A stretch of DNA of 64,000 nucleotides from an uncultured Ruminococcus sp. Lineage in GTDB: Bacteria; Bacillota; Clostridia; Oscillospirales; Acutalibacteraceae. Position 1 is the stretch's first letter. Every line of letters starts with the position of its first letter. The notes beneath the pieces are model-generated. The model searched no databases and was not told where the DNA came from. It worked only from the letters and a program-made list of their open reading frames with translations. Positions 25,114-37,256 of this stretch are shown in pieces. The position numbers and the translations under genes were made by a program. Location: assembly GCA_902776375.1 (NCBI GenBank), contig CACYPV010000011.1, forward strand, positions 21,072-85,071. The letters run 5' to 3'.

Positions 25114-26655
25114 ATGAAGGAAACAGTTATCGTCCTCGATTTCGGCGGACAGTACAACCAGCTTATAGCCAGACGCGTGCGTGAATGTAACGTGTACTGC
25201 GAGATCTTGCCTTACACGGTCAGCATCGAGCGCATTAAGGAGCTCGACCCCAAGGGCATCATATTCACCGGAGGTCCCAACAGCGTTTACGACGAGACCT
25301 CGCCGCACTACACGCCCGATATCTTCAAGCTCGGCATACCGATACTCGGCATTTGCTACGGCTGTCAGCTCATGGCTTATTCCCTCGGCGGCAACGTCGT
25401 TTCGGCTCAGGACAATTCTGTCAGCGAATACGGCAAGACCGTCACGGATTATAACAACGATTGTGTGCTTTTTGAAAATATAACCGGCAGCGGCGTATCG
25501 TGGATGAGCCACCGCGACTATATAAATAAGGTCCCCGAGGGCTTCACCGTTACCGCTACCACCGAGCACTGCCCCGTCGCTGCAATGGCAGACGCGGAAA
25601 GAAAGCTTTACGGCGTTCAGTTCCACCCAGAGGTGAACCACACCGAGCACGGCAAAGATATGCTGCGCAGCTTCCTGTTCAACGTCTGCGGCTGCAAGGG
25701 CGAATGGCAGATGGACAGCTTCATCGACAGCGCCGTCGCTGAATTGAAGGCGCAGATAGGGGACAAGGGCGTTGTGCTCGGACTTTCCGGCGGCGTAGAC
25801 AGCTCAGTTGCCGCCGCGCTGCTCAGCAAGGCTGTGGGCAAGCAGCTCACCTGCGTATTCGTCGACCAGGGGCTTATGCGCAAGGACGAGGGCGATTTTG
25901 TCGAGAACACCTTTACAAAGCTGTTCGACATGAACTTTGTCCGCATAAATTGTCAGGAGGAATTCCTCTCTAAGCTCAAAGGCGTTTCAGACCCCGAGGA
26001 GAAGCGCAAAATCATCGGCGCCGAGTTTTACAACGTGTTCTGGAACAAGATACGCGACGAATACGGCAGCGGCTTCTTCGCGCAGGGCACAATCTACCCC
26101 GACCGCATCGAAAGCGGCAAGGGCGACGCGGCAAAAATAAAAACCCACCATAATCAGGTGGAAGTCCCGAAGGATATCAAATTCGAGGGGATCATCGAGC
26201 CGCTTAAAGACTTATTTAAAGATGAAGTCCGCGCGGTGGGCGAAAAGCTCGGCTTGCCTCACGAGCTCGTGTGGCGCCAGCCCTTCCCGGGTCCCGGACT
26301 CGGCGTGCGCGTGATAGGCGAGATCACCGCCGAGCGCGTAAAGACCCTGCAGGAAGCCGACGCGATCCTGCGCGACGAAATAGAAAAATGCGGCTACGCA
26401 AAGGAGCTCAGCCAGTTCTTCGTTGTGCTCCCGGGCGTTAAGACCGTGGGAGTGATGGGCGACGCCCGCACCTACGACGAGCTTGTGGCGATCCGCGCCG
26501 TTACCACCGACGACTTTATGACCGCCGACTGGGCAAAGATACCCTACGATATCCTCGGCAAGCTCTCAAACCGCATAATAAACGAGGTAGAGCATGTAAA
26601 CCGCGTGGTTTACGACATCACCAGCAAGCCGCCCGGAACGGTGGAATGGGAGTAA
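25114..26655 (+). CDS. guaA: GMP synthase (glutamine-hydrolysing)
   Basis: Converts XMP to GMP. 513 residues: class I glutaminase domain (1-190) with the nucleophile in GICYGCQ and the later [10 protein letters not shown], then the ATP-pyrophosphatase domain with P-loop [10 protein letters not shown] near residue 225, and the C-terminal dimerisation domain ending [16 protein letters not shown] precedes the ATG. The 3' end of guaA is a known hotspot for genomic-island integration; the sequence after it looks like accessory DNA, and partial copies of its last bases recur at 29683 and 32493. Confidence 0.97.
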
Positions 26656-26757
26656 TCCCCAAATCGTCAAAAAGCGCATAAACAAGCGGTTTTGGCTGTG
26701 TGATTGCCCTCGTTGGCAACAGAATGGCAACATTATTTGAATTATTGTAAAAATATA

Positions 26758-26800
26758 GAGCTATCAGATTTTCTGTAAGTCTGATAGCTCTTGTTCTTTC
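26758..26800 (+). terminator. Terminator after guaA
   Basis: Stem GAGCTATCAGA (26758-26768) with TCTGATAGCTC (26780-26790), then TTGTTCTTTC. Confidence 0.75.
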
Positions 26801-26832
26801 AGTTTCTAAAACAACCTGCCAAAAAGGAAGGT

Positions 26833-26958
26833 GTGACTGAGCAGCTCAAAGCAGAAAATCAAATGCTGTGGGGCGCGGGTCTCCGGTGGAGACCTCTGCC
26901 GAAGGCAGAAGCGCCGACCGAGCCGACAGGCGAGACAGCGAATGAACAATATCCGTAA
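26833..26958 (+). pseudogene. Small coding fragment, possible mobile-element remnant
   Basis: Reading from GTG 26833 gives 41 residues (VTEQLKAENQMLWGAG..., ending EQYP) with a proline- and glutamate-rich end, preceded by GGAAGG. The frame stays open upstream for at least ten codons (KQPAKKEG), so it looks like the tail of a longer gene. I do not recognise the family. Tails of this composition occur in conjugative-element proteins, but that is only an impression. Confidence 0.3.
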
Positions 26959-27004
26959 CCGTGCAACGGAAATCGTTAATGCAGAGTTGATTTATGTATA
27001 ATAA

Positions 27005-27041
27005 AATCGAGCAAAGGTGAATTATTCATCTTCGCTCGATT
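27005..27041 (-). terminator. Terminator of the ABC exporter operon
   Basis: On the minus strand, seven bases after the permease stop, AATCGAGC pairs with GCTCGATT around an inner partial stem, followed by TTATTATA. Confidence 0.7.
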
Positions 27042-27047
27042 ATCTTT

Positions 27048-28184
27048 TTATTCGCTCATAATTTGTTTTAACGGTATTTTTTTCATTGACTGACCATAAG
27101 CAAACATCACGCCTTCATATACAACGATAAAAACAGCAAGCGTTATAAAGAACATCAGAAAATCAAACTCATATTCGGGAATACCCTCGACGCCCGAAAA
27201 AACAATATCAACCATAATTCTCAATAATGCATACTGATACACGGAACCGATGATAAAGCCGATATACGCCGCCGGGCGGTAGCCGTCGAGAACAGAACGC
27301 TTGCAATCAGCACTATCATAGCCGAATACACGCATCATAGCAATATTCTTTTGGTTGGAGCGGATGACGGTGGTCACGGCAATATACAGCGTGGTAAACG
27401 CCAGAACAACGCCGATAATCAACATCATCAAGCCCATCATTTCACTTGACAAATCCTTCATACTTGCCGACATTTGTATCATAGCTGAGAAGCAGAACGA
27501 GGAAAAGGCGATGAAGAACACCAAGGTTTTGCGGCTTCTTAACACAGAGCTCCTCATTTCGGCGACAAAAGTCTTTTTATCTTTTGTGTTTTTGGTTTTC
27601 CCCTTTACCTTTACGATACCCTTCAACAGATTGACGCAAGGCTGGCGAAGCTTTAACAGGCTGTTGCATACTGCAATCAAAGCAAAGACCAAAGTGGGAG
27701 CAATCACCAGCAGGACGAATAATATCCAATGATAACCAATAGAAAGCTCCGGCAAATAACCGTCTTTATTTTGTAACTCATAAAACTGCGGCATTAACGC
27801 AAATGACAGCAAATAGCCGACGAAACAGCCAAGGAATACACTCAAGCCGAAAACAGAAAAACCCTTGGCAATTTTGAAATCAGAATAACCGAGAGCCTTT
27901 AATATCCCGATTTCCTTTGAATGGCTGTCTATGTAATGCTTGATATAGAAAAACAGCATCACAACGGTAGTAATCGCCAAGCAGCCGCCGCTGACGGCGC
28001 AAACGACCTTTGAAGTCATAATCTGTGCGTCGTAGAACATCTGCGCGTAGGGGTTGTCAATCAGACCTGCTATCGCAGTTAAATCCAAATAATAGTTTAA
28101 AAACATATTGCAGACGGTTACCGCACAGCAGGTCATAATGGAAATTCCGAACAACTTTACGCTGTCCTTGATACTGACAATCAT
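27048..28184 (-). CDS. ABC transporter permease, FtsX family
   Basis: 378-residue membrane protein with an N-terminal helix (FGISIMTCCAVTVCNMFL), a helix near 60-85 followed by KEIGILKALGYSDFKIAKGF, the typical FtsX coupling motif, and a second repeat with IAMMRVFGYDSADCKRSVL. That gives two FtsX units in one chain with little extracytoplasmic domain. It works with the ATPase encoded 4 bases upstream. Likely an exporter of a peptide or small toxic compound, as for TetR-linked systems of this type; the substrate is unknown. Confidence 0.85.
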   Translation of the reverse strand: MIVSIKDSVKLFGISIMTCCAVTVCNMFLNYYLDLTAIAGLIDNPYAQMFYDAQIMTSKVVCAVSGGCLAITTVVMLFFYIKHYIDSHSKEIGILKALGYSDFKIAKGFSVFGLSVFLGCFVGYLLSFALMPQFYELQNKDGYLPELSIGYHWILFVLLVIAPTLVFALIAVCNSLLKLRQPCVNLLKGIVKVKGKTKNTKDKKTFVAEMRSSVLRSRKTLVFFIAFSSFCFSAMIQMSASMKDLSSEMMGLMMLIIGVVLAFTTLYIAVTTVIRSNQKNIAMMRVFGYDSADCKRSVLDGYRPAAYIGFIIGSVYQYALLRIMVDIVFSGVEGIPEYEFDFLMFFITLAVFIVVYEGVMFAYGQSMKKIPLKQIMSE

Positions 28185-28188
28185 ACCG

Positions 28189-28881
28189 TCACCACCCGAT
28201 CTCGTAAGCCGTCTTTTTATCCGTGTTTTCGGTAACGCTGACGATTTTGCCGCTGTTCATCTTAATGATTCTGTCGGCGGTTTCGGCTATATTGCTGTTG
28301 TGCGTTACCATAATCATCGTAAAGCCCTGTTCCTCGTGTAGCTTGATGATATAGTCGAGTACCTGTCTGCCTGTTTCTTCGTCTAATGCTCCTGTCGGCT
28401 CGTCAAGAAAAAGTACCTTCGGATTCTTTGCGAGCGCTCTTGCTATCGCTACACGCTGTTGTTCGCCGCCGCTGAGCTCTGATGGGAATTTTCTGCGCTT
28501 ATCGGATAAGCCGACCGCTTCGATATATTTCAGATAATCCTTGTTATTGTCGAGGTCAGCACCCATCCTTACATTCTTTTCTACATTTAGATGTGGGAGC
28601 AAATAATACTGCTGAAAGATATAAGCCGTGTTTTCACGTCGGAATTTCGTCAGATCCTTTTCGCTCATATTGCCGAGTTCTTGGCTGTCATAAGCAACAC
28701 AACCGCCGTCTGAAGTCTCCAAGCCCGAAATGACATTGAGAAAGGTTGATTTTCCCGAACCTGAAGCGCCGAGTATGACGATAAACTCACCATCGTTAAT
28801 GCGAACGGAAACACCATCCAGCGCTTTAAAGCGACTTTCGGCTTTTCCGTAATATTTTGTTAAATCATTTATCTCTATCAT
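28189..28881 (-). CDS. ABC transporter ATP-binding protein (MacB/LolD type)
   Basis: 230-residue nucleotide-binding subunit. Walker [10 protein letters not shown] near residue 36, Q-loop [12 protein letters not shown], signature [15 protein letters not shown], Walker [13 protein letters not shown] and H-loop MIMVTHNS are all intact. Pairs with the FtsX-type permease downstream; the TetR-like gene sits 5 bases upstream, so all three form one operon. Confidence 0.94.
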
Positions 28882-28886
28882 TATTA

Positions 28887-29362
28887 TTATCCTTTCAGTC
28901 TTTCTGTCAGCAATGCTTTGAAAACTTCCGTCAGCATTATGCCGATCTCAACTTCCGTAAAGCGACACATAGATGTTGCGCAGAGGGTGGCAATGCCGTG
29001 AGAATATATCCATAGGTGTCGGTACAATATAACAGCGTCATCTGCCGATACAGGATATTCATCGGTAATTGATTTTAAAATATCGATATAGTTGTCATCA
29101 ATTTCGGGGAGTATTCTATTTACGCCTATATTACCGTATGTTTTTCGCATAAACAAAAGTTGAAACAGCTTCGGCTCATTTATTGCAAACTGAATATATG
29201 ACTGACCAACGCCCTTAAAGGCAGGGGTTTGCTGTAATCCTTGCTCAACATATTCGGAATATATCTCACGAGCTTTTGCTTCAATCCCGTTAAGTACCTC
29301 GCCCATATTATCAAAAACGGTAAATATCGGTCTTGCCGAGCTAATTTCGCTTTAGGGGGCAT
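28887..29362 (-). pseudogene. TetR/AcrR-family repressor, DNA-binding domain deleted and frame shifted
   Basis: The intact part (minus frame from about 29343 to 28887) reads SSARPIFTVFDNMGEV...GLQQTPAFKGVG...FAINEPKLFQLLFM, a C-terminal ligand-binding half typical of a clostridial TetR subgroup. Those proteins begin MPPKAK followed by about 30 residues of helix-turn-helix. Here the ATG at 29362 gives MPPKAK and then jumps directly to the SSARPIF region in a different frame, so most of the HTH is missing and the join is out of frame. Translation from ATG 29306 would give a 139-residue protein without a DNA-binding domain. The repressor is probably non-functional. Confidence 0.75.
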
Positions 29363-29377
29363 AATGAGCTCCTTTCT

Positions 29378-29391
29378 AAAACAATCGTTTT
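29378..29391. promoter_or_regulatory. Probable TetR operator
   Basis: AAAACAATCGTTTT: perfect 5-bp arms AAAAC/GTTTT around a 4-bp core, between the ABC-operon promoter and the TetR ATG. A second partial copy (AATCGTTTTG, 29421-29430) overlaps the promoter spacer. Confidence 0.5.
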
Positions 29392-29405
29392 ATAACATTT
29401 GTTTT

Positions 29406-29434
29406 ATTATAAAGTATAATAATCGTTTTGTCAA
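29406..29434 (-). promoter_or_regulatory. Promoter of the tetR-ABC operon
   Basis: Consensus TTGACA (29434-29429), 17-bp spacer, consensus TATAAT (29411-29406) on the minus strand, 43 bases before the ATG at 29362. Confidence 0.8.
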
Positions 29435-29682
29435 TAACCGGATTTGTAACGCCAAAACACGCAATGAAATGAAATACCCTTTGAATACAAAGCTAAAATG
29501 CGGTATAATAGCCGTATAGAAAAGTTTATCCAACACGGCTAAATTCCCTTACTGTTATCAACGCTGATAAAAAATGATAACAAGAGGGGATATAGGCAGG
29601 AGAATATGGATATATCAAATAATCAAAAGAACCACAGATAGTACAGATAATAATACCTACACGGAATTGTTTAAGCGCTATC
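29435..29682. other. Non-coding gap, no supported gene
   Basis: AT-rich. A 43-codon frame from ATG 29573 runs into the repeat at 29683 (ending RVGVNF) but has no ribosome site and no recognisable family. Nothing else is identified. Confidence 0.5.
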
Positions 29683-29753
29683 GAGTGGGAGTAAATTTCT
29701 AATATAGAATTATAATCAACGCCGCCAAGTGGGATAATCTCCTGCTTGGCGGC
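29683..29753 (+). repeat. guaA-end-like site plus terminator repeat, copy 1
   Basis: It begins GAGTGGGAGTAA, matching 11 of 12 bases of the guaA 3' end (GAATGGGAGTAA), preceded by ATC so that it reads like the common guaA ending IEWE-stop. It continues through an AT-rich stretch into a hairpin GCCGCCAAG/CTTGGCGGC (29721-29753) with a following T-run. Nearly identical over 71 bp to 32493-32563. Confidence 0.75.
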
Positions 29754-29772
29754 TCTGTTTTTTTGAATAATA

Positions 29773-29802
29773 ACCACTTATCTTCAAAAAACGACCACTT
29801 AT
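29773..29802 (+). promoter_or_regulatory. LytTR-type operator, two 9-bp direct repeats
   Basis: ACCACTTAT at 29773-29781 and 29794-29802, exactly identical and separated by 12 bp (21-bp period). This is the architecture LytTR regulators such as AgrA bind. It lies about 65 bases upstream of the LytTR gene, just before a TATACT -10 candidate (29836-29841) that lacks a good -35, as expected for an activated promoter. Confidence 0.6.
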
Positions 29803-29866
29803 TGAAAAACGGTGGATTTGATTTTCAAAGCGTGGTATACTGTTGTCAACAAAGGAGGAAAAAACA

Positions 29867-30307
29867 ATGCAGGTAGAGATCAAAATTGACGACAACTGTA
29901 TTGAGCCGAAGGTAATTATCGTTACCGATAAGGTAACCGATGAAATCAACGACATACTCAATACGCTTTCATCAAAAACGCCCGAGGTTATCACAGGCTT
30001 TTACAATGATTTAGCCGAGATCTTATCGCCGGAGGACATTATCCGTATTTACGCAGAGGGCGGCAAGACATTTGCTTTTGCCAACAAGAAAGAATATATC
30101 CTTAGACAAAGATTATACGAGCTTGAGGAGCAGCTTACCAAGTACAGCTTTGTGCGCATTTCCAACTCGGAGATCATCAATCTTAAAAAGGTGCGCAACT
30201 TTGATTTGAGCTTATCGGGTACGATTTGCGTTACGCTGTCCGACGGTACGACTACTTATGTTTCAAGACGCTATGTGTCAAAAATCAAAAAGGTTTTAGG
30301 TTTATAG
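29867..30307 (+). CDS. LytTR-domain transcriptional regulator
   Basis: 146-residue single-domain regulator. An N-terminal 50-residue segment (QVEIKIDDNCIEPKVIIV) precedes the LytTR domain: IRIYAEGGKTFAFANKKEYILRQ, LEEQLTKYSFVRISNSEIINLKKV, then DGTTTYVSRRYVSKIKKVLG. There is no response-receiver domain, so it resembles LytTR regulatory systems in which a membrane protein of the DUF3021 type holds the regulator inactive. AAAGGAGG precedes ATG 29867 by five bases. The DUF3021 partner follows after 10 bases but appears broken. Confidence 0.88.
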   Translation: MQVEIKIDDNCIEPKVIIVTDKVTDEINDILNTLSSKTPEVITGFYNDLAEILSPEDIIRIYAEGGKTFAFANKKEYILRQRLYELEEQLTKYSFVRISNSEIINLKKVRNFDLSLSGTICVTLSDGTTTYVSRRYVSKIKKVLGL

Positions 30308-30317
30308 GAGGTAGATT

Positions 30318-30735
30318 ATGAAAAAGAAAGTTATTCTGCGCAGCCTGATCGGTGCTAATCAACAAGGGAGAGTATTATCCTGTAGTGCCGCAGTTGACTG
30401 CTCTTTGCGGCAATGAACTGAATGCAGTCGTTATCCAGACAATATGCTCTTTGATATACGGAGCTGCTTTCGGCGGAGCGTCGGTGATTTGGGAAACGGA
30501 TAATTGGAGCCTTTTGAAGCAGACGGTTCTGCACTTCCTTGTAATAACAATATCATTGTTCCCAATCGCCTATTTTATGTACTGGATGCCGCATAGCTTT
30601 TTAGGAATAGTAGGCTATATCGCCATCTTTTTCCTCATTTATTTCTCTATTTGGATCGCTCAGTACTTTGCTATGAAGAAAAGGATTCAGGCGTTCAACG
30701 ACAAGGTCAAATCAGATTTAGTAAACAGCCAATAA
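30318..30735 (+). pseudogene. DUF3021 membrane protein, internal deletion with frameshift
   Basis: ATG 30318, behind AGGAGGT, encodes MKKKVILRSLIGA, the usual DUF3021 start, then the frame fails. The rest of the family sequence resumes in another frame at about 30355 (INKGEYYPVVPQLTALCGNELNAV) and continues through three helices to MKKRIQAFNDKV. In intact relatives the first transmembrane helix lies between these parts, so roughly 20 residues appear to be deleted out of frame. Translation of the remainder could only start at the poor GTG 30352. It would normally restrain the LytTR regulator next door. Confidence 0.7.
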
Positions 30736-30743
30736 ATAATCCA

Positions 30744-30780
30744 GCCGCCAAGCGGGATATTTCCTGTTTGGCGGCTTTTT
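30744..30780 (+). terminator. Terminator after DUF3021, shorter relative of the 29721 hairpin
   Basis: GCCGCCAAGCGGG...CTGTTTGGCGGC (30744-30775) followed by TTTTTC. The stem matches the hairpin part of the repeats at 29721, 32531 and 34446, but the flanking bases differ. Confidence 0.8.
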
Positions 30781-30801
30781 CAAAAATATTTCAATAAACT
30801 C

Positions 30802-30830
30802 TTGACAACTATATCGGAAGGTGATATAGT
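30802..30830 (+). promoter_or_regulatory. Promoter of the padR operon
   Basis: TTGACA (30802-30807), 17 bp, TATAGT (30825-30830). Confidence 0.75.
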
Positions 30831-30883
30831 TATTACAACATCCGATATATCGGAAAGCGATATAACAGGAGATGATATATCGG
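30809..30883. promoter_or_regulatory. Cluster of PadR operator-like palindromes
   Basis: CTATATC-7 bp-GATATAG (30809-30829) lies between -35 and -10. Perfect CCGATATATCGG (30842-30853) is followed by CGATATA, and GATGATATATCGG lies at 30871-30883. All share the ATATCG/CGATAT half-site and sit between the promoter and the padR ATG, fitting autorepression by PadR. Confidence 0.6.
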
Positions 30884-30906
30884 TAAACGATAACAGAGGT
30901 GATCAT

Positions 30907-31212
30907 ATGTCAAAACAAAACGCTTTGACTGAGCCTGTTTATTACATTCTGCTGTCACTGCTTACGCCTATGCACGGCTATGGTATTATGCAGAACGTAA
31001 AAAAGTTGACAAATGACAGGGTGAACATCGGCGCGGGTACGCTCTACGGAGCGATCAACACCCTGCTCTCAAAGGGCTTTATTGCGGAATACAAAAGCGA
31101 TCCGTCCAAAAAGGAATATATCATCACAGATGACGGAAGAAGCGTATTAAGCGCGGAGCTTACAAGACTAAAGGAGCTTGTAAAAAACGGAGAAGAATTA
31201 TTGGAGGGTTAA
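30907..31212 (+). CDS. PadR-family transcriptional repressor
   Basis: About 102 residues. Winged-helix core: EPVYYILLSLLTPMHGYGIMQNVKKLT, then IGAGTLYGAINTLLSKGFI (recognition helix and wing) and KKEYIITDDGRSVL, with a C-terminal dimerisation helix. ATG 30907 follows AGAGGTGAT. An in-frame upstream extension would be made of the operator repeats and is not real. It regulates a gene encoding a DUF2812 membrane protein five bases downstream, a common pairing. Confidence 0.92.
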   Translation: MSKQNALTEPVYYILLSLLTPMHGYGIMQNVKKLTNDRVNIGAGTLYGAINTLLSKGFIAEYKSDPSKKEYIITDDGRSVLSAELTRLKELVKNGEELLEG

Positions 31213-31216
31213 TACG

Positions 31217-31813
31217 ATGGATAATTCACACATCTCAAAATTTAAACTGTTTTTTTCGCTCGATAAGGAGCTTGCGTTTATCAATAAGATGAACAAAGAA
31301 GGCTGGAAGCTCATCTATATCAAAGGCGGAGTTATTTATTCATTTGAAAAATCCAAGCCGGACGAGTATTTTACCATACTTCACGCCACAGCAAAGGAAA
31401 AGATTTTGGAAATATCCTCTTTTGCCGCTCAGTGCGGTTATCAAGCCATACCGCATACGATGGACGGTTTCGGTGATCTGCTTTATCTCACCGGCAGAAA
31501 GACAGATGTTTCGCCTGAATTTGTTTGTGAAGCACCTGAAAAAATTGACAGCGCAGAAAGAATATATCATCGTTTCCGAACTCTCAGCATTGTTTTTATC
31601 ATATTGTCCGTTTTACTTATTTTGGATTGTGCGATTATCCTTTGGGCAAGGATGACCGCTCCCGAGGCTTCGGTTATTTTAACTGTTTTTGGTGTGTTGT
31701 TTATGTTATTCGTTGCAATATATATTGCTATGTGTATCTATGTTAACGTGCTGACCGCCAAAGCACGCCGAAATTTGAAGCAATTACAAAAGGAAAGTGA
31801 AATCTATGAATAA
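31217..31813 (+). CDS. DUF2812 domain membrane protein
   Basis: 198 residues. The N-terminal DUF2812 domain (KLFFSLDKELAFINKMNKEGWKL, YSFEKSKPDEYF) is followed by two C-terminal helices (about 122-145 and 152-178) and a basic tail. The function is unknown; in Firmicutes it is repeatedly encoded behind a PadR gene and is likely the repressed effector. Starts 5 bases after padR. Confidence 0.85.
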   Translation: MDNSHISKFKLFFSLDKELAFINKMNKEGWKLIYIKGGVIYSFEKSKPDEYFTILHATAKEKILEISSFAAQCGYQAIPHTMDGFGDLLYLTGRKTDVSPEFVCEAPEKIDSAERIYHRFRTLSIVFIILSVLLILDCAIILWARMTAPEASVILTVFGVLFMLFVAIYIAMCIYVNVLTAKARRNLKQLQKESEIYE

Positions 31814-31828
31814 AAAGGGTGTGTCTTT

Positions 31829-32140
31829 TTGTATTACCTGTATCTAATACCTTTTTTCGTCTTACTGATCATCATTTTTATATCTTATAATCCAAAAGTA
31901 TCGGAAAGGAAAATGACAATGGTTATTTTATCAAACGACAAAACAATATGTGCCGAGTACAACCGCATGACTGTTCAACGCAATTACGGAAACGGAAAAG
32001 ATAAAAAATTTGCGCTTATCGGCAGCGTCAACCATCATTCGGATGTATTAAACAGCTATCCGACAAAAGAAGAGGCAGTTGCAGAACTTGAAAAGATATA
32101 CGCAGCTTATCAAAACGGCGATAAAACATATGCGGTATAA
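31829..32140 (+). CDS. Small single-helix membrane protein, unknown function
   Basis: 103 residues from TTG 31829: one N-terminal helix (YLYLIPFFVLLIIIFISY) then a soluble 75-residue domain (ILSNDKTICAEYNRM, FALIGSVNHHSD, KEEAVAELEKIYAAY). GGGTG lies before the TTG. A start at ATG 31910 behind GGAAAGG would give a soluble 76-residue protein instead. I do not recognise the family. It is the last gene of the padR operon, 15 bases after DUF2812. Confidence 0.6.
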   Translation: MYYLYLIPFFVLLIIIFISYNPKVSERKMTMVILSNDKTICAEYNRMTVQRNYGNGKDKKFALIGSVNHHSDVLNSYPTKEEAVAELEKIYAAYQNGDKTYAV

Positions 32141-32492
32141 GATTATGGTCGAAGGAATTGGATTTTATCCAAATCAATCTGTAACGCCCAAACCCATCAA
32201 GTAATGTAATCACTCTACCTAACCTATTTTTCTTTTCAAAGAGCGCATAAATAGTATGTTTTGAAGCCTAAAAGCGTGACACTATTTCGATTTATTATCA
32301 AGATTAAAAAGTATAATTATTTTACCGCTTTAAAGTTTTGATTTTAAAGAATGGTTATGCTATAATAAACCAAAAGCTATTAGAAATAAACCAAGCTACG
32401 AATGATAGCAAATGACTGATAGCTTTTTGATAGCACAAGCTGTGATAACTAAACAAAAATGTATAATTGAAACCATATTTCTTTGCACTTAA
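32141..32492. other. 352-bp gap without a recognisable gene
   Basis: AT-rich, stop codons in all frames at short intervals, no strong hairpin. It ends at the second guaA-end-like repeat. Probably decayed insert DNA. Confidence 0.5.
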
Positions 32493-32563
32493 GAGTGGGA
32501 GTAAAATTCTAATATGGAATTATAATCAACGCCGCCAAGTGGGATAATCTCCTGCTTGGCGGC
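32493..32563 (+). repeat. guaA-end-like site plus terminator repeat, copy 2
   Basis: GAGTGGGAGTAA followed by the same AT-rich segment and GCCGCCAAG/CTTGGCGGC hairpin (32531-32563) as at 29683-29753. Only three or so differences over 71 bp. A T-run follows. Confidence 0.75.
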
Positions 32564-32616
32564 ATCTTTTTTGATTCTTGCAAATAAAAATATCTACGAC
32601 TAAATGTAAAATATAC

Positions 32617-32645
32617 TTGACAAAACGAATGTAATATGATACACT
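32617..32645 (+). promoter_or_regulatory. Promoter of the membrane protein/XRE pair
   Basis: TTGACA (32617-32622), 17 bp, TACACT (32640-32645), 46 bases before ATG 32691. Confidence 0.6.
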
Positions 32646-32690
32646 CTCCATGTAAAGATCACTATTTGAAATTTTAAAGGAGTGTTTATT

Positions 32691-33206
32691 ATGCTTGAAA
32701 ATCCTCTGGTTCCTGCTATCATTATTATCGCTGTCTTTGTGTTAGTTGTGATCGTACGCTCAAAAAAGGTAAGAAAAGCACAGTATGATGAACGTCAGCT
32801 TTTGGCGAGAAATACCGCGTTTCGCTATTCATTTTTCTTCTTGCTGTTTTATTGCTTTGTCTGCGCGGTTTTGCAGCTCTGCAACGTCATTTGGGCGCCG
32901 ATCTCGATACAAATGTTTCTCGGGATAATTCTATCTTTTGCGATATTTATCGCATTGTGTATTATCAAGGACGCCTATTTTTCTACTTCGAAAAAGTATA
33001 ACACCAATGCAGTTATCTTCTTTTTTGCGTACGGCGTCGTAAATTCGGTCTATTTGGTGCACGGGCTCGTCAACGGTAAAACCTTTTTGGAAAACGGACA
33101 ATTCTCAGAGCTCGTTTTGTATGCTGTTGCCGCCGTTTGCCTCTTTGTCTTGGGAATCTTTTCGGTCATTAAGTATACTCTCGAAAATCGCGGAGCGGAG
33201 AAGTAA
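32691..33206 (+). CDS. Four-helix membrane protein paired with an XRE regulator
   Basis: 171 residues. Helix 1 at residues 5-24, then a basic segment with KKVRKAQYDERQLLARNTAFRYS, and three more helices near 48-70, 78-98 and 108-165. The DERQ-motif segment after the first helix is seen in many small Firmicutes membrane proteins cotranscribed with short XRE regulators. AAGGAG lies eight bases upstream of ATG 32691. Its stop overlaps the XRE start by one base. Function unknown. Confidence 0.75.
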   Translation: MLENPLVPAIIIIAVFVLVVIVRSKKVRKAQYDERQLLARNTAFRYSFFFLLFYCFVCAVLQLCNVIWAPISIQMFLGIILSFAIFIALCIIKDAYFSTSKKYNTNAVIFFFAYGVVNSVYLVHGLVNGKTFLENGQFSELVLYAVAAVCLFVLGIFSVIKYTLENRGAEK

Positions 33207-33397
33207 TGAAAAACTTGAAACTAAAAAGCGCGCGCGCCGCGCTCGACCTTTCTCAGCAACAGCTTGCCGATAAGGTTGGCGTCAGCCGACAAACGATCAA
33301 CGCTATAGAAAAAGGCGACTACAATCCGACAATCAAGCTGTGTGTCGCTATTTGCCGCACGCTCGGAAAAACCTTAGACGAATTATTCTGGGAATGA
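33206..33397 (+). CDS. Short XRE-family HTH regulator
   Basis: 63 residues consisting almost only of the HTH: KSARAALDLSQQQLADKVGVSRQTINAIEKGDYNPTIKLC, ending LDELFWE. This compact type (YozG-like) is normally encoded next to a small membrane protein, as here with a TAATG overlap. Likely an autoregulator of the pair. Confidence 0.93.
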   Translation: MKNLKLKSARAALDLSQQQLADKVGVSRQTINAIEKGDYNPTIKLCVAICRTLGKTLDELFWE

Positions 33398-33431
33398 TGT
33401 TAAAATTCTAAATTAGAATAATAATTCGGAT

Positions 33432-33460
33432 TTGACAAATGGTTTTGTTTCCGCTATAAT
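33432..33460 (+). promoter_or_regulatory. Near-perfect promoter of the CD3324-family gene
   Basis: TTGACA (33432-33437), 17 bp, TATAAT (33455-33460). The resulting leader is about 120 bases. Confidence 0.8.
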
Positions 33461-33483
33461 AGGGCGGACAGGAGGGCTGCGAT

Positions 33484-33510
33484 TTGAAAAGATATGTTAT
33501 TGCCGAATAA
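33484..33510 (+). other. Possible 8-codon leader ORF in the CD3324 leader
   Basis: GGAGGG (33471-33476) is followed at good spacing by TTG and codons for MKRYVIAE then TAA. The stop region pairs into a hairpin CCGAATA (33503-33509)/TATTCGG. It could be an attenuation-type leader or the remnant of a deleted gene start. Confidence 0.35.
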
Positions 33511-33589
33511 GCATTGGCTATTCGGTATCATTTGAATATTGCTATAGCCATTGCTTACCCTAAAGCATTACATTTTTTAGGAGGCAACA

Positions 33590-33871
33590 ATGAGCTATAT
33601 CAAGGCAGACGAAGTGCTGCCGCAGAACATTATAAAAATCATTCAACAATATATAGACGGGGAAAATATTTACATTCCAAAGAAAGAAGGCTCCCGCGTC
33701 GATTGGGGAGCGAAAACCGGCGCCAAAAAAGAGCTGCGCCGACGCAACACTTTGATTTATCGGGAATATCTTAATGGCGAAAATGTTGCCGCACTGGCAA
33801 GCCGGTACTACCTTTCCGATAAATCGATACAGCGTATCATACGCGAAATGAGAATCAGTGAGTCTGCCTAG
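33590..33871 (+). CDS. CD3324-family small HTH protein
   Basis: 93 residues matching the CD3324 family of Clostridia: SYIKADEVLPQNIIKIIQQYIDGENIYIPKK, a basic middle (AKKELRRRNTLIYREYLNG) and a C-terminal HTH (ALASRYYLSDKSIQRIIREMR) of the Mor/resolvase type. Probably DNA-binding; targets unknown. AGGAGG precedes the ATG. Confidence 0.85.
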   Translation: MSYIKADEVLPQNIIKIIQQYIDGENIYIPKKEGSRVDWGAKTGAKKELRRRNTLIYREYLNGENVAALASRYYLSDKSIQRIIREMRISESA

Positions 33872-33964
33872 CGCAGGCTCATTCTTTTTTATAATAGTTT
33901 GTGAGGTAGACATATATCAAAATGTATGGTATGATAATGTCAGTAAATCGAAAGGATGATCACA

Positions 33965-34414
33965 ATGAAAACTTATAAATATATAGCCCTTCGCGAACAG
34001 CCTGAAATAAAGGAAAAAGCCGCTCAGTGGTTCCACGAAAAATGGGGCGTGCCCAAAGAGGCGTATCTTGAATGTATGGAGGATTACCTCAGCGGAAACA
34101 CCGAAAACGGCTGGTATCTGTGCCTTGACGGAGAAATGATAATCGGCGGCTTGGGCGTTATAGAAAACGACTTTCACGAAAGAAAGGATCTGGCGCCCAA
34201 CGTCTGTGCTGTCTATACTGAGAGCGATTACCGCAAGCAGGGGATAGCCGGAAAGCTCTTGGATATGGCGGTTGAAGATTTGCGGACAAAGGGGATCACG
34301 CCGCTTTATCTTGTTACCGACCACACCGGCTTTTACGAAAGATACGGCTGGGAGTTCCTGTGCATGGTGCAGGGAAGCGACCCCGAGCCGTCAAGAATGT
34401 ATGTGCATTACTAA
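33965..34414 (+). CDS. GNAT-family N-acetyltransferase
   Basis: 149 residues. The GNAT fold is shown by NGWYLCLDGEMIIGGLGVIEN, the acetyl-CoA loop VYTESDYRKQGIAGKLLDMAVEDL (R/Q-x-x-G-x-A pattern) and LYLVTDHTGFYERYGWEFL. The substrate is unknown. ATG 33965 follows AAAGGATGA; the frame extends three codons upstream without a ribosome site. It stands alone and is followed by a repeat-type terminator. Confidence 0.9.
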   Translation: MKTYKYIALREQPEIKEKAAQWFHEKWGVPKEAYLECMEDYLSGNTENGWYLCLDGEMIIGGLGVIENDFHERKDLAPNVCAVYTESDYRKQGIAGKLLDMAVEDLRTKGITPLYLVTDHTGFYERYGWEFLCMVQGSDPEPSRMYVHY

Positions 34415-34423
34415 AATATAATG

Positions 34424-34478
34424 CTATATTAGAATTATAATCATTGCCGTCAAGCGGGATAATCTCCTGCTTGGCGGC
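34424..34478 (+). repeat. Diverged third copy of the terminator repeat
   Basis: Matches the last 55 bases of the repeats at 29683 and 32493 (AGAATTATAATCA, then hairpin GCCGTCAAG/CTTGGCGGC at 34446-34478, T-run), but lacks the leading GAGTGGGAGTAA. It acts as the terminator of the GNAT gene. Confidence 0.7.
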
Positions 34479-34517
34479 GTTTTATTTTGGATTTGATGTA
34501 AGTTATTCGCTAACTTA

Positions 34518-34592: not shown

Positions 34593-35363
34593 ATGAAAAA
34601 CTCTATCAAAGCAATGGCTATAGCTTCAGCGCTTTCCCTGTGCGCGGTATTTGCCGGCTGTTCCGGTTCTGCGTCATCCGGCACGTCAAGCGAGCCGTCG
34701 GCGCAGCCTGCTGCCGATCAGGCGACTGTAGCTGCAACGGAAGCGCCCGTCGAAGAAACGATCGTACCGCTTTCTACAAATCCCGAGGATTATCTGACGA
34801 TGTTCGACGAGGGCAGCTACTATAACAAGGTGCTTTACAAGGACTGCGAATACAAAATGCCCCTAATTAAGCTGGATTCCGCCGACGCTAAGACCATTAA
34901 CAGCGAGCTGGAAGAGGTCTATAAGCAGTGCCAAAACGATATCGATCTATACAAAAATCAAGAATTCCACGACGGCACTCAGACGGTCAGCTACACCGCC
35001 GCTCTGAACGGCTCCGTCCTTTCGCTTTGCGTAGAGCGTAAATATCCCATGAGCGTCCGGAAATACAACGTTGCTAATATCGACGTGCTCACCGGCGAAA
35101 AGCTCGACAACAGCGCGGTATTGACTGCTGCCGGAACCACCGAGGAGCAGGTCAAGAGCAATACCAAAGCCGCTATCGATTCTTACTATGCCGATAAGTA
35201 CGGCTCTAACGTCGGCAGTAAGTCATACAGCAAAACCATGTCGGACGATAATATCGCCGCGGCAAGGTATTATCTCGGAGACGGAAATTCCTTATGCGCC
35301 GCGTTCGATGTGTTCTTCGAGGCGGGCGTGGGCGTCACCGAAGGCACGGCAAAAATATCATAA
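34593..35363 (+). CDS. Lipoprotein with DUF3298/RsiV-like domain
   Basis: 256 residues. A lipoprotein signal peptide ends in the lipobox VFAGC at cysteine 23, followed by a Ser/Ala/Glu-rich linker to about residue 55. The remaining domain (PLIKLDSADAKTINSELEEVYKQC, VSYTAALNGSVLSLCVERKYP, NVDVLTGEKL-type segment) looks like the PdaC/RsiV (DUF3298) fold, which binds lysozyme or wall glycans in known cases. The role here is not known. AAGGAG precedes the ATG. Confidence 0.7.
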   Translation: MKNSIKAMAIASALSLCAVFAGCSGSASSGTSSEPSAQPAADQATVAATEAPVEETIVPLSTNPEDYLTMFDEGSYYNKVLYKDCEYKMPLIKLDSADAKTINSELEEVYKQCQNDIDLYKNQEFHDGTQTVSYTAALNGSVLSLCVERKYPMSVRKYNVANIDVLTGEKLDNSAVLTAAGTTEEQVKSNTKAAIDSYYADKYGSNVGSKSYSKTMSDDNIAAARYYLGDGNSLCAAFDVFFEAGVGVTEGTAKIS

Positions 35364-35408: not shown

Positions 35409-35521
35409 TATCGGAATTATAAATTACGTTTTCGTGATATTTACCGAAAATTTGATTTTCTATTGCTACATGCGTTTTTTTGTGCTAAAATGTTCCTGTA
35501 TAAAAATAAGGAGAGAAATAT

Positions 35522-35971
35522 ATGGACGAAAACTTTAAGTTTTTGGTTTCCGCTTCGGGCTTTGAGCTTGAACGGATACGCACCGCGCTTTTAGATAACG
35601 GCATACCCAGCGACAGCAAGCCGCAGCGCCGCAATTTTTCCGCTAAGGCGGTCACGGGCGTTGACAATTCCGTGCAGGACATCTATGTTGCGGAGAAGGA
35701 CTACGAAAACGCTTACGATCTTTGCGTCGGCATCGGCGCTATACACATCGAGGGCGAGGAAGAGATAATCGAGGATGACGCCGCTTTTGCCGATGCTGCG
35801 GAAAACGCGGAGGAAACATCCGCCGCACCCGCCGAGGAATTCGAGGAGATGCCCTCGGGCAAGCGCACCGCGGTGCGCATAGTGTCGGCTATCCTGTTTA
35901 TTCTTATCGCCGCCGCCATCATATTCGGAACAGATTATTTTATGGGCTGGATCAAAGGCCTGTTTATGTAA
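35522..35971 (+). CDS. DUF2007-like protein with C-terminal membrane anchor
   Basis: 149 residues. Residues 4-75 look like the DUF2007 (putative signal-transducing, ferredoxin-like) domain: FLVSASGFELERIRTALLDNGIPSD and DIYVAEKDYENAYDLC. An acidic linker (about 80-112) leads to one C-terminal helix (VSAILFILIAAAIIFGTDY), so it is a tail-anchored cytosolic domain. Function unknown. AGGAGAG precedes the ATG; metY follows after 13 bases. Confidence 0.7.
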   Translation: MDENFKFLVSASGFELERIRTALLDNGIPSDSKPQRRNFSAKAVTGVDNSVQDIYVAEKDYENAYDLCVGIGAIHIEGEEEIIEDDAAFADAAENAEETSAAPAEEFEEMPSGKRTAVRIVSAILFILIAAAIIFGTDYFMGWIKGLFM

Positions 35972-35984
35972 GGAGTAATTTACA

Positions 35985-37256
35985 ATGAACGTTGAAACAA
36001 AATGCCTGCACGCAGGCTATGAACCCGAAAACGGCGAGCCCAGACAGCTCCCGATCTATCAGAGCACCACATGGAAATACGCTTCCTCAGACGATATGGG
36101 CAAGCTTTTTGACCTTGAGGCGAGCGGTTATTTCTATACCCGCCTGCAAAACCCCACCAACGATCAGGTCGCGGCTAAGATCGCCGCGCTCGAGGGCGGC
36201 GTAGCCGGAATGCTTACTTCAAGCGGACAGGCGGCAAACTTCTTCGCGCTGTTTAATATCTGCGAGACCGGCAGCCATATCGTGGCTTCCTCCTCGATAT
36301 ACGGCGGCACATACAACCTGCTGGGCGTTACAATGAAGAAAATGGGCATCGACGTCACCTTTGTCGACCAGACCCTTTCCGAGGAAGAGCTTCAAAAGGA
36401 GTTTCGCCCCAACACCAGAGCCGTGTTCGGCGAGACCATCACCAACCCCACGGTTTCGGTGCTCGATATCGAAAAGTTCGCGCGTTTGGCGCATAAAAAC
36501 GGCGTTCCGCTCATTATCGACAACACCTTTGCAACTCCCGTAAACTGCCGCCCGATCGAGTTCGGCGCGGATATCGTCACTCATTCCACCACAAAATACA
36601 TGGACGGTCACGCCGTTAGCGTAGGCGGCGCTATTGTGGACAGCGGCAACTTCGATTGGATGGCGCACGCCGACAAATATCCCGGCATGACCACTCCCGA
36701 CGATAGTTATCACGGCTTGGTTTACGCCGAAAAGTTCGGCAAGCTCGGCTATATCACAAAGGCGACATCGCAGCTCATGCGCGACCTCGGCTCTATCCAG
36801 TCGCCCATGAATGCTTTCTACCTCAACAACGGTCTTGAAAGCCTGCACGTAAGGATGAACCGCCACTGCGAAAACGCGCTTAAAATCGCGAAATTCCTTA
36901 AGGCTCAGGACAAAGTCGCTTGGATCCATTATCCCGACCTCGAGGGCGACGACAACTATGAGCTCTGCAAAAAGTATCTGCCCAACGGTTCCTGCGGCGT
37001 AATCGCGTTCGCAGTCAAAGGCGGCAGAGACAAAGCTATCGCTTTCATGGACAGCCTCAAGCTTATGATAATCGCCACTCACGTAGCCGACGCGCGCACC
37101 TGCCTGCTCCATCCCGCAAGCCACACCCACCGTCAGCTCAGCGACGACCAGCTCCGCGAGGCAGGCATCGCGCCCGACCTTATCCGTCTGTCGGTAGGTC
37201 TTGAAAACGCCGACGACCTTATCGCCGATCTTCAGCAGGCGCTGGACAAGATTTAA
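35985..37256 (+). CDS. metY: O-acetylhomoserine sulfhydrylase (MetY type)
   Basis: PLP enzyme of the Cys/Met-metabolism family that makes homocysteine from O-acetylhomoserine and sulfide. 423 residues, the longer MetY length. TKCLHAGYEP at the start, SGYFYTRLQNPT, SSGQAANFFAL, SIYGGTYNL, and the PLP-lysine region HSTTKYMDGH are intact, as are LIIDNTFATP and HPASHTHRQL. Cystathionine gamma-synthase is the main alternative, but length and the YTRLQNPT/STTKYMDGH pattern favour MetY. AAGGAG precedes the ATG. Confidence 0.9.
   Translation: MNVETKCLHAGYEPENGEPRQLPIYQSTTWKYASSDDMGKLFDLEASGYFYTRLQNPTNDQVAAKIAALEGGVAGMLTSSGQAANFFALFNICETGSHIVASSSIYGGTYNLLGVTMKKMGIDVTFVDQTLSEEELQKEFRPNTRAVFGETITNPTVSVLDIEKFARLAHKNGVPLIIDNTFATPVNCRPIEFGADIVTHSTTKYMDGHAVSVGGAIVDSGNFDWMAHADKYPGMTTPDDSYHGLVYAEKFGKLGYITKATSQLMRDLGSIQSPMNAFYLNNGLESLHVRMNRHCENALKIAKFLKAQDKVAWIHYPDLEGDDNYELCKKYLPNGSCGVIAFAVKGGRDKAIAFMDSLKLMIIATHVADARTCLLHPASHTHRQLSDDQLREAGIAPDLIRLSVGLENADDLIADLQQALDKI

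Follow-up and report, generated by a model that had tools for sequence, protein, structure and literature searches.

Decayed integrative elements probably stacked at the 3' end of guaA in an uncultured Ruminococcus species

The window analyzed here is a stretch of 64,000 nucleotides (nt) of contig CACYPV010000011.1 from an uncultured Ruminococcus sp. (assembly GCA_902776375.1; 2.635 Mb, hereafter the own genome), and positions are numbered within it. Its guaA gene, which encodes GMP synthase (25114 to 26655, plus strand; Pfam GATase and GMP_synt_C), is followed by a tract of small modules reaching to about 34.5 kb. The guaA protein is 84 to 91% identical in amino acid sequence in the five nearest named loci (loci carry L numbers and genomes G numbers throughout), and the 3' end of the gene appears to serve as an attachment site. 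The gene closes with GAATGGGAGTAA at 26644 to 26655 (plus strand), the 12-bp att core and putative attL of the first block, island A. As the original prediction had it, the guaA tail recurs in the same orientation at 29683 and 32493, where GAGTGGGAGTAA was found, again on the plus strand. Allowing up to one mismatch, the 12-mer has three matches in the window against 0.34 expected, and none of 100 shuffles reached that number. The exact GARTGGGAGTAA occurs four times in the own genome, namely the three tract copies and one on contig C65 with flanks unlike theirs, and 0 times in a reversed-sequence control of the whole own genome. With one further exact copy genome-wide, the 12-mer is not the common sequence that would have spoken against the prediction.

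The sites stand, but the original prediction overlooked that each distal copy opens an 80-nt repeat, here called the tail-terminator unit, and the two repeats are 93 to 95% identical. Within the unit, the guaA tail is followed by a palindrome rich in A and T and then by a hairpin (14-bp stem) with a T run behind it. One unit (29683 to 29762, plus strand; core at 29683 to 29694) forms the right end of island A and the left end of block B, and the other (32493 to 32572, plus strand; core at 32493 to 32504) lies at the right end of block B. Because the distal 12-mers belong to this repeat, we initially suspected that they were the mere left edge of a dispersed terminator and that their likeness to guaA was accidental; the AT-rich part alone indeed has 15 matches in the own genome (4 in the tract) and 0 in the reversed control. 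The relatives showed the opposite. Among the 80 named loci, four (L103, L105, L107, and L111) have the unit directly behind guaA; it starts exactly at the true guaA end in G012, G004, G132, and G069 too, and elsewhere the same 12-mer precedes unrelated integrase arms. In G012 (locus L083), the guaA match (window 25130 to 26655) ends at 2050 and the match to 29683 to 30780 starts at 2039; in L111, guaA ends at 1377 and a 67% match to 32493 to 33397 starts at 1366. The overlap at these guaA-distal joints is exactly the 12-bp core in both. The joints, together with cores that lack the repeat, refute the reading of a dispersed terminator, to which we give next to no credence. That the 12-mer resembles the end of guaA merely by accident is likewise rejected, on the 12-mer counts in window and genome and on the joints in G012 and L111.

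The same joints answer a check that the original prediction had proposed, that guaA be found directly joined to distal DNA: it is joined to the 29683 module in G012 and to the 32493 module in L111. A relative of the GNAT gene at 33965 directly follows guaA in G007. None of the relatives' fetched stretches carries the whole tract, so relatives with all of it in fixed order, named beforehand as contrary evidence, were not encountered there.

Island A (26656 to 29694) opens with a left integrase arm (26656 to 26790, plus strand) that has GGCAACA direct repeats at 26715 to 26721 and 26726 to 26732 and a terminator-like hairpin at 26758 to 26790. L219 has a 7.5-kb element with integrase and relaxase matches, and over 156 nt its left end shares 93.6% identity with the segment from 26644 to 26799. 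Next come a tnpV remnant (26792 to 26995, plus strand; 91% over 81 nt to the 3' portion of the gene matching TnpV, PF14198, in G091) and, on the minus strand, cargo consisting of an FtsX-like permease (27048 to 28184; PF02687; 100% amino acid match in G091) and an ABC transporter ATPase (28189 to 28881; PF00005; 99% amino acid match in G091). A TetR-family regulator (28887 to 29363, minus strand) is broken in its N-terminal part, with a stop in the stretch and a match to the C-terminal domain only. The block closes with a right integrase arm, R1 (29442 to 29682, plus strand), which carries TGATAACA-type sites and matches G012, G091, G003, G007, L218, L219, and L220; R1 has a core after it in G012, G091, G003, L218, and L219.

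What an intact relative of island A looks like can be seen in G091, a single-contig genome of the same genus with guaA at C1:2041206-2042762. Behind this guaA lie the core, a left arm, an HTH gene, a Phage_integrase gene with an arm-binding domain, and NikA-like, AAA ATPase, Mob_Pre, and TnpV genes. The element continues with the same FtsX permease and ABC ATPase, an intact TetR-family gene (191 amino acids; TetR_C_33 above the cut-off, TetR_N below), R1, and a core 17,758 bp past the first. The transporter operons of the window and G091 share 97.9% DNA identity over 1834 nt, against 68% for guaA over the best 958-nt match. The window yields no integrase, relaxase, or Rep-like match at an E value of 1e-8. 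By this comparison, 26656 to 29694 is shown to be an internally deleted integrative mobilizable element (IME), a relative of the 17.8-kb G091 element: it keeps the left arm, the tnpV remnant, the transporter, the broken TetR gene, R1, and the core, and has lost its integrase, replication, and mobilization genes. The repeat class of its left arm differs from that of the G091 left arm. Because this arm instead matches the left end of the L219 element, island A may be composite.

In terms of known categories, the window has neither the integrase nor the relaxase of its own that marks an IME; G091 has both by Pfam, and G003, G002, and L219 have both by homology or reading. Island A agrees better with a cis-mobilizable element (CIME), having attL and attR flanks with the repeated target-gene end (cores at 26644 and 29683) and having lost the integration and mobilization genes that its source element, as seen in G091, retains.

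Block B (29695 to 32504), also without an integrase, carries plus-strand genes for a LytTR-domain regulator (29867 to 30307; PF04397), a DUF3021 membrane protein apparently without its N-terminal part (30352 to 30735; PF11457, profile positions 27 to 129 of 130 from residue 4), a PadR-family regulator (30907 to 31212; PF03551), a DUF2812 protein (31217 to 31813; PF11193), and a small protein (31829 to 32140) with no Pfam or NCBIfam match, a relative of which follows DUF2812 in G132. A hairpin terminator of the tail-terminator family, without core, lies at about 30742 to 30780 (plus strand). The block ends in R2 (32178 to 32492, plus strand), by resemblance a right integrase arm with three GATAGC sites, and the core at 32493. 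Matches to R2 in genomes of the same genus are partial, at best 99 to 100% over 85 to 98 nt, and a query of R2 plus the repeat unit gave matches in 59 of 150 genomes of the genus, many of them to the unit, the hairpin, or part of R2 only. In G069, a tail-terminator unit follows guaA; R2-like DNA (95% over 133 nt) lies 1.35 kb further along, with another core and unit behind it. A relative that lacks block B at the same core, as expected of a CIME, is provided by the L111 joint.

Block C (32505 to about 34.5 kb) has, again on the plus strand, a membrane-protein-like gene with no Pfam or NCBIfam match (32691 to 33206), an HTH regulator (33206 to 33397; PF01381), a CD3324-family, Mor-like protein (33590 to 33871; NF040785 and PF08765), and a GNAT acetyltransferase (33965 to 34414; Pfam GNAT families), followed by a tail-terminator unit without core (34417 to 34485, plus strand; nhmmer, model positions 10 to 78). 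The prediction that the tract holds no housekeeping genes is borne out for the proteins scanned, two further ones matching no family. Some modules are more similar between species than guaA is: LytTR-DUF3021 is 82 to 84% identical in G012, G132, and L169, where guaA is 68 to 76%; the CD3324 gene is 86.8% identical in G002, G069, L165, and L169, where guaA is 68 to 74%; and PadR-DUF2812 reaches 84% in G132.

Several minor observations concern the hairpins and repeats of the tract. The stretch from 33386 to 33425, just past the stop of the HTH gene, resembles a worn tail-terminator unit without its hairpin, which G002 retains at the matching position (L085:3402-3478). With up to one mismatch, TTCTAATATAGAATT has 15 copies in the own genome, 5 to 16 in five genomes of the same genus, 0 to 1 in the reversed control, and 0 to 2 in three genomes of other genera. 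It stands in the window at 29697 to 29711, 32507 to 32521, 33404 to 33418, and 34420 to 34434, and at 11 further places in the own genome; many copies stand apart from any core. As for known RNA families, Rfam at gathering thresholds gives two tRNAs only in the window. At three sites in or near elements (L212:13166-13604, L220:11515-12795, and L099:109-1284), LytTR-DUF3021 or its remains stand behind tnpV or a tnpV remnant, with the same hairpin in between, as if the stretch past tnpV were a cargo slot.

To establish how the core behaves across relatives, 121 core sites were collected from the window, 40 fetched stretches, and the 80 named loci, a site being accepted if its left or right side was recognizable. 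All core sites lie on one strand in every multi-site locus. Of the 47 named loci that have at least 3 kb after guaA, 11 carry an integrase close behind the gene, and G091, G003, and G002 hold core-to-core elements with an integrase; integrases next to guaA with this core had been proposed as a check, and here they are. After removal of sites with an unclassed side, short flanks, or a duplicate locus (one), 54 sites were classed on both sides (39 guaA ends and 15 arm sites). Seven left types (two guaA genes and the right arms R1, R2, R2b, R3, and R4) meet four right types (the tail-terminator unit and three classes of left arm) in 16 of the 28 possible combinations. Among 471 pairs differing on both sides, identity is 0.91 in the 12-bp core and 0.28 on average outside it; since the sites were found by core pattern, the conservation of the core is partly built in, and it is the loss of similarity in the flanks that is informative.

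Five cores have a right arm before them and another left arm after them (R1-b, R2b-b, R2b-c, R3-b, and R3-c, where by reading of the arms R1 is of class c, R2b of d, and R3 of a). Because an integrase was found behind three of the five, the cores within arrays seem to receive elements as well. We also considered capture of an element circle by a single crossover at the hairpin; this predicts the same arm class on both sides of the core, but the class differs in 5 of 5, and the idea was dropped. Among 11 integrases compared for agreement of clade with repeat class, four of the five with GATAAC repeats group together at 77 to 97% identity and two of the three with GATAGC repeats are 96% identical, yet those of L133 and L135, also 96% identical, have different repeats, and L218 has no repeat that was recognized.

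The core is also found at the end of a second gene, a stand-alone GMP synthase synthetase gene (L214:9205-10185), which encodes 326 amino acids in G148, the sole one scanned. By tail pattern, such a gene is present in L092, L104, L105, L145, L159, L163, L165, L169, L178, L218, L221, L222, and L231. Of these loci, L163, L165, L169, and L178 have a main guaA whose last residue differs and which lacks the core; there the second gene retains it.

In all likelihood, the tract from 26656 to 34.5 kb is a stack of integrative elements that inserted at the 3' end of guaA and then decayed. In this reading, tyrosine integrases of IMEs would recombine a circular element, through its matching core, with the 12-bp end of guaA, such that guaA stays intact and its tail is duplicated at the distal end of the insert. 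Later elements could then enter at guaA or at the distal copy, such that tail copies would pile up in one orientation. R2 would be the right arm of a second, GATAGC-type element, block B the rest of that element after loss of its left arm, and block C perhaps partly an older neighbor of guaA; the shared hairpins may insulate the modules and offer chances for homologous recombination. The original prediction of tandem island insertions that lost their integrases is largely upheld by the joints, the G091 element, and the lack of an integrase in the window.

Besides the built-in share of core conservation, several points weigh against this interpretation. First, block B has at its left end the core, the AT palindrome, and the hairpin and not an integrase arm, so that the attL expected of a CIME is absent there. 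Second, among the relatives examined, none of the elements found to bear an integrase ends in R2, R2b, or R3; the integrase-bearing right ends seen are R1 (G091, G003, and L219) or R4 (L085). Third, G132 keeps LytTR-DUF3021, PadR-DUF2812, and DUF-HTH in the order of the window, with sigma/anti-sigma-like and hydrolase-like genes (by reading of translations) between the modules, and has a hairpin but no core before DUF-HTH. Given this shared order and missing core, blocks B and C need not be independent insertions. Fourth, PadR-DUF2812 is 75.9% identical in G012, no more than guaA (75.7%), and DUF-HTH, after the second distal core, is 70 to 73% identical between species against 72 to 78% for guaA. 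Parts of the tract may thus be inherited and not imported, DUF-HTH perhaps being an old neighbor of guaA, as it is no more similar between species than guaA itself. The repeat classes at the two ends of one element may disagree (b and c in G091, a and c in L219), and single columns outside the core still reach 0.84 to 0.86 identity. Finally, sites of one genome are not independent, a single duplicate locus having been removed, and the relatives are nearly all draft or metagenome assemblies.

In an alternative, island A alone would be a site-specific insertion, and blocks B and C would have been built without an integrase, by homologous recombination and duplication at the repeated terminators. 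Hairpins of the unit family stand at module borders even without a core (30742 and 34443, and in G021 and G132), modules are present or absent between hairpins, and the left integrase arm of block B is wanting. However, the 315 nt of block B that lie immediately ahead of its terminal core carry GATAGC sites, and arm-like stretches of this kind precede cores with differing right sides in several genomes. We regard the alternative as possible but doubtful; because no integrase-bearing element with an R2 end was found, it was given more weight, and the stack of decayed elements less, than would otherwise have been the case.

A further regularity emerges from the 20 intervals between neighboring cores (L092 and L104 being the same place). 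Eleven begin with a tail-terminator unit, a share inflated by the retrieval of several loci with the unit as query. None of these 11 has an int, mob, rep, or tnpV match, and 10 of them end in a right arm, of four types; nine of the 10 measure 2.0 to 4.1 kb and the tenth 179 nt. Four of the 20 begin with an integrase arm, two of them with an integrase (L085 and L219), and the other five have a first core whose right side is unclassed. The recurrence of unit-headed cassettes without an integrase, mostly 2 to 4 kb long, is the one regularity left unexplained by a stack of decayed elements. One explanation would be that they form a non-autonomous class moved in trans by resident guaA integrases, as an integron-like store anchored at guaA. 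The absence of mobility genes, the right arms of four types, and the recurrence of modules in differing neighborhoods agree with this; the left end of the cassettes, however, is without arm-type repeats, and the choice of query enlarges their share. We think it unlikely. A bolder proposal sees the guaA end in this genus as the anchor of an open array that captures genes, in which tail-headed cassettes closed by one of at least four arm types would be moved in trans by any resident guaA integrase; in our judgment it is equally improbable. Were the terminator-headed cassettes to move in trans, genes would be captured here by a system that is not an integron.

The stack is a CIME-like accretion of decayed islands at a known hotspot. 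Excerpted text of the sources cited here describes CIMEs and tandem accretion for ICESt1-related elements of Streptococcus thermophilus (PMC5704250) and the accretion of decayed streptococcal elements with att sites kept (PMC5704250 and PMC5357655). As in those excerpts, the elements at our locus are decayed, lack integration and transfer genes, keep att sites, and have newcomers beside them at the same gene end; in contrast, the target is guaA, the host is from a genus of the Ruminococcaceae, and block B starts with a tail-terminator unit where an integrase arm would be expected. The excerpts likewise name guaA as a target, of Tn5801-like elements (PMC4844618) and of streptococcal integrative and conjugative elements (ICEs) and IMEs (PMC4701971 and PMC5357655), and ATE-1, an IncP island, and Gisul2 are tabulated as guaA elements in PMC5704250. 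They share with our elements a tyrosine integrase, the guaA 3' end, and a short repeat, which in the same material is 11 bp in Tn5801-like elements and, in streptococcal guaA elements, just the exact gene end. As far as these excerpts go, known guaA elements are single and named tandems are at rpsI, rpmG, and rplL, whereas here several are stacked on one guaA core.

Tandem island arrays at ssrA of Dehalococcoides, 15 islands of which lack an integration module (PMC3146451, in excerpt), are similar in that many islands follow a single gene and have direct repeats of that gene's 3' end as borders. As excerpted, that system has a serine recombinase, a 20-bp repeat, and many rdhA genes, while ours has tyrosine integrases, a 12-bp core, and a small cargo of regulators and transporters. 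Integron cassette arrays also hold small modules between recombination sites of one orientation behind a fixed site; in contrast, the window has no IntI-type integrase, and the G091 integrase, the sole one scored, reaches 40.9 bits against an integron-integrase cut-off of 265. Searches of open-access literature gave no match for mobilizable elements at guaA in Ruminococc- taxa or for a non-autonomous cassette array of a tyrosine recombinase, which does not imply absence from print. The locus shows a gut or rumen integration hotspot turning into a standing array of small regulator and transporter modules, and because intact elements, decayed elements, and empty joints are all present within a single genus, it is possible to reconstruct in what order elements came and went.

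The original prediction placed the tract at 26641 to 34478. Modules do extend to about 34.5 kb, but this is not the right edge, as DNA shared with relatives resumes at about 35.47 kb. The first shared DNA past the tract, a block of a DUF gene and metY (35475 to 37256, plus strand), is matched in G024 and G006 from 35475 and 35477, and a gene that reads as lipoprotein-like (34593 to 35363) lies outside it. GC content is 0.34 to 0.48 at 27 to 35 kb against 0.53 to 0.59 at 21 to 27 kb and 0.55 to 0.56 at 36 to 39 kb; because the region from 40 to 60 kb has low-GC stretches too (down to 0.38), GC alone proves little. A copy of metY at 61% identity or more is present in 15 of 17 other genomes searched, in 15 of 15 on a contig other than that of guaA, although these assemblies are drafts, such that adjacency across contig ends is possible. 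The position of the metY block beside the guaA tract here, and elsewhere in those 15, could reflect a rearrangement in this lineage. Judging by their look, the genes that precede metY in three cases inspected are presumably those for dipicolinate synthase subunits.

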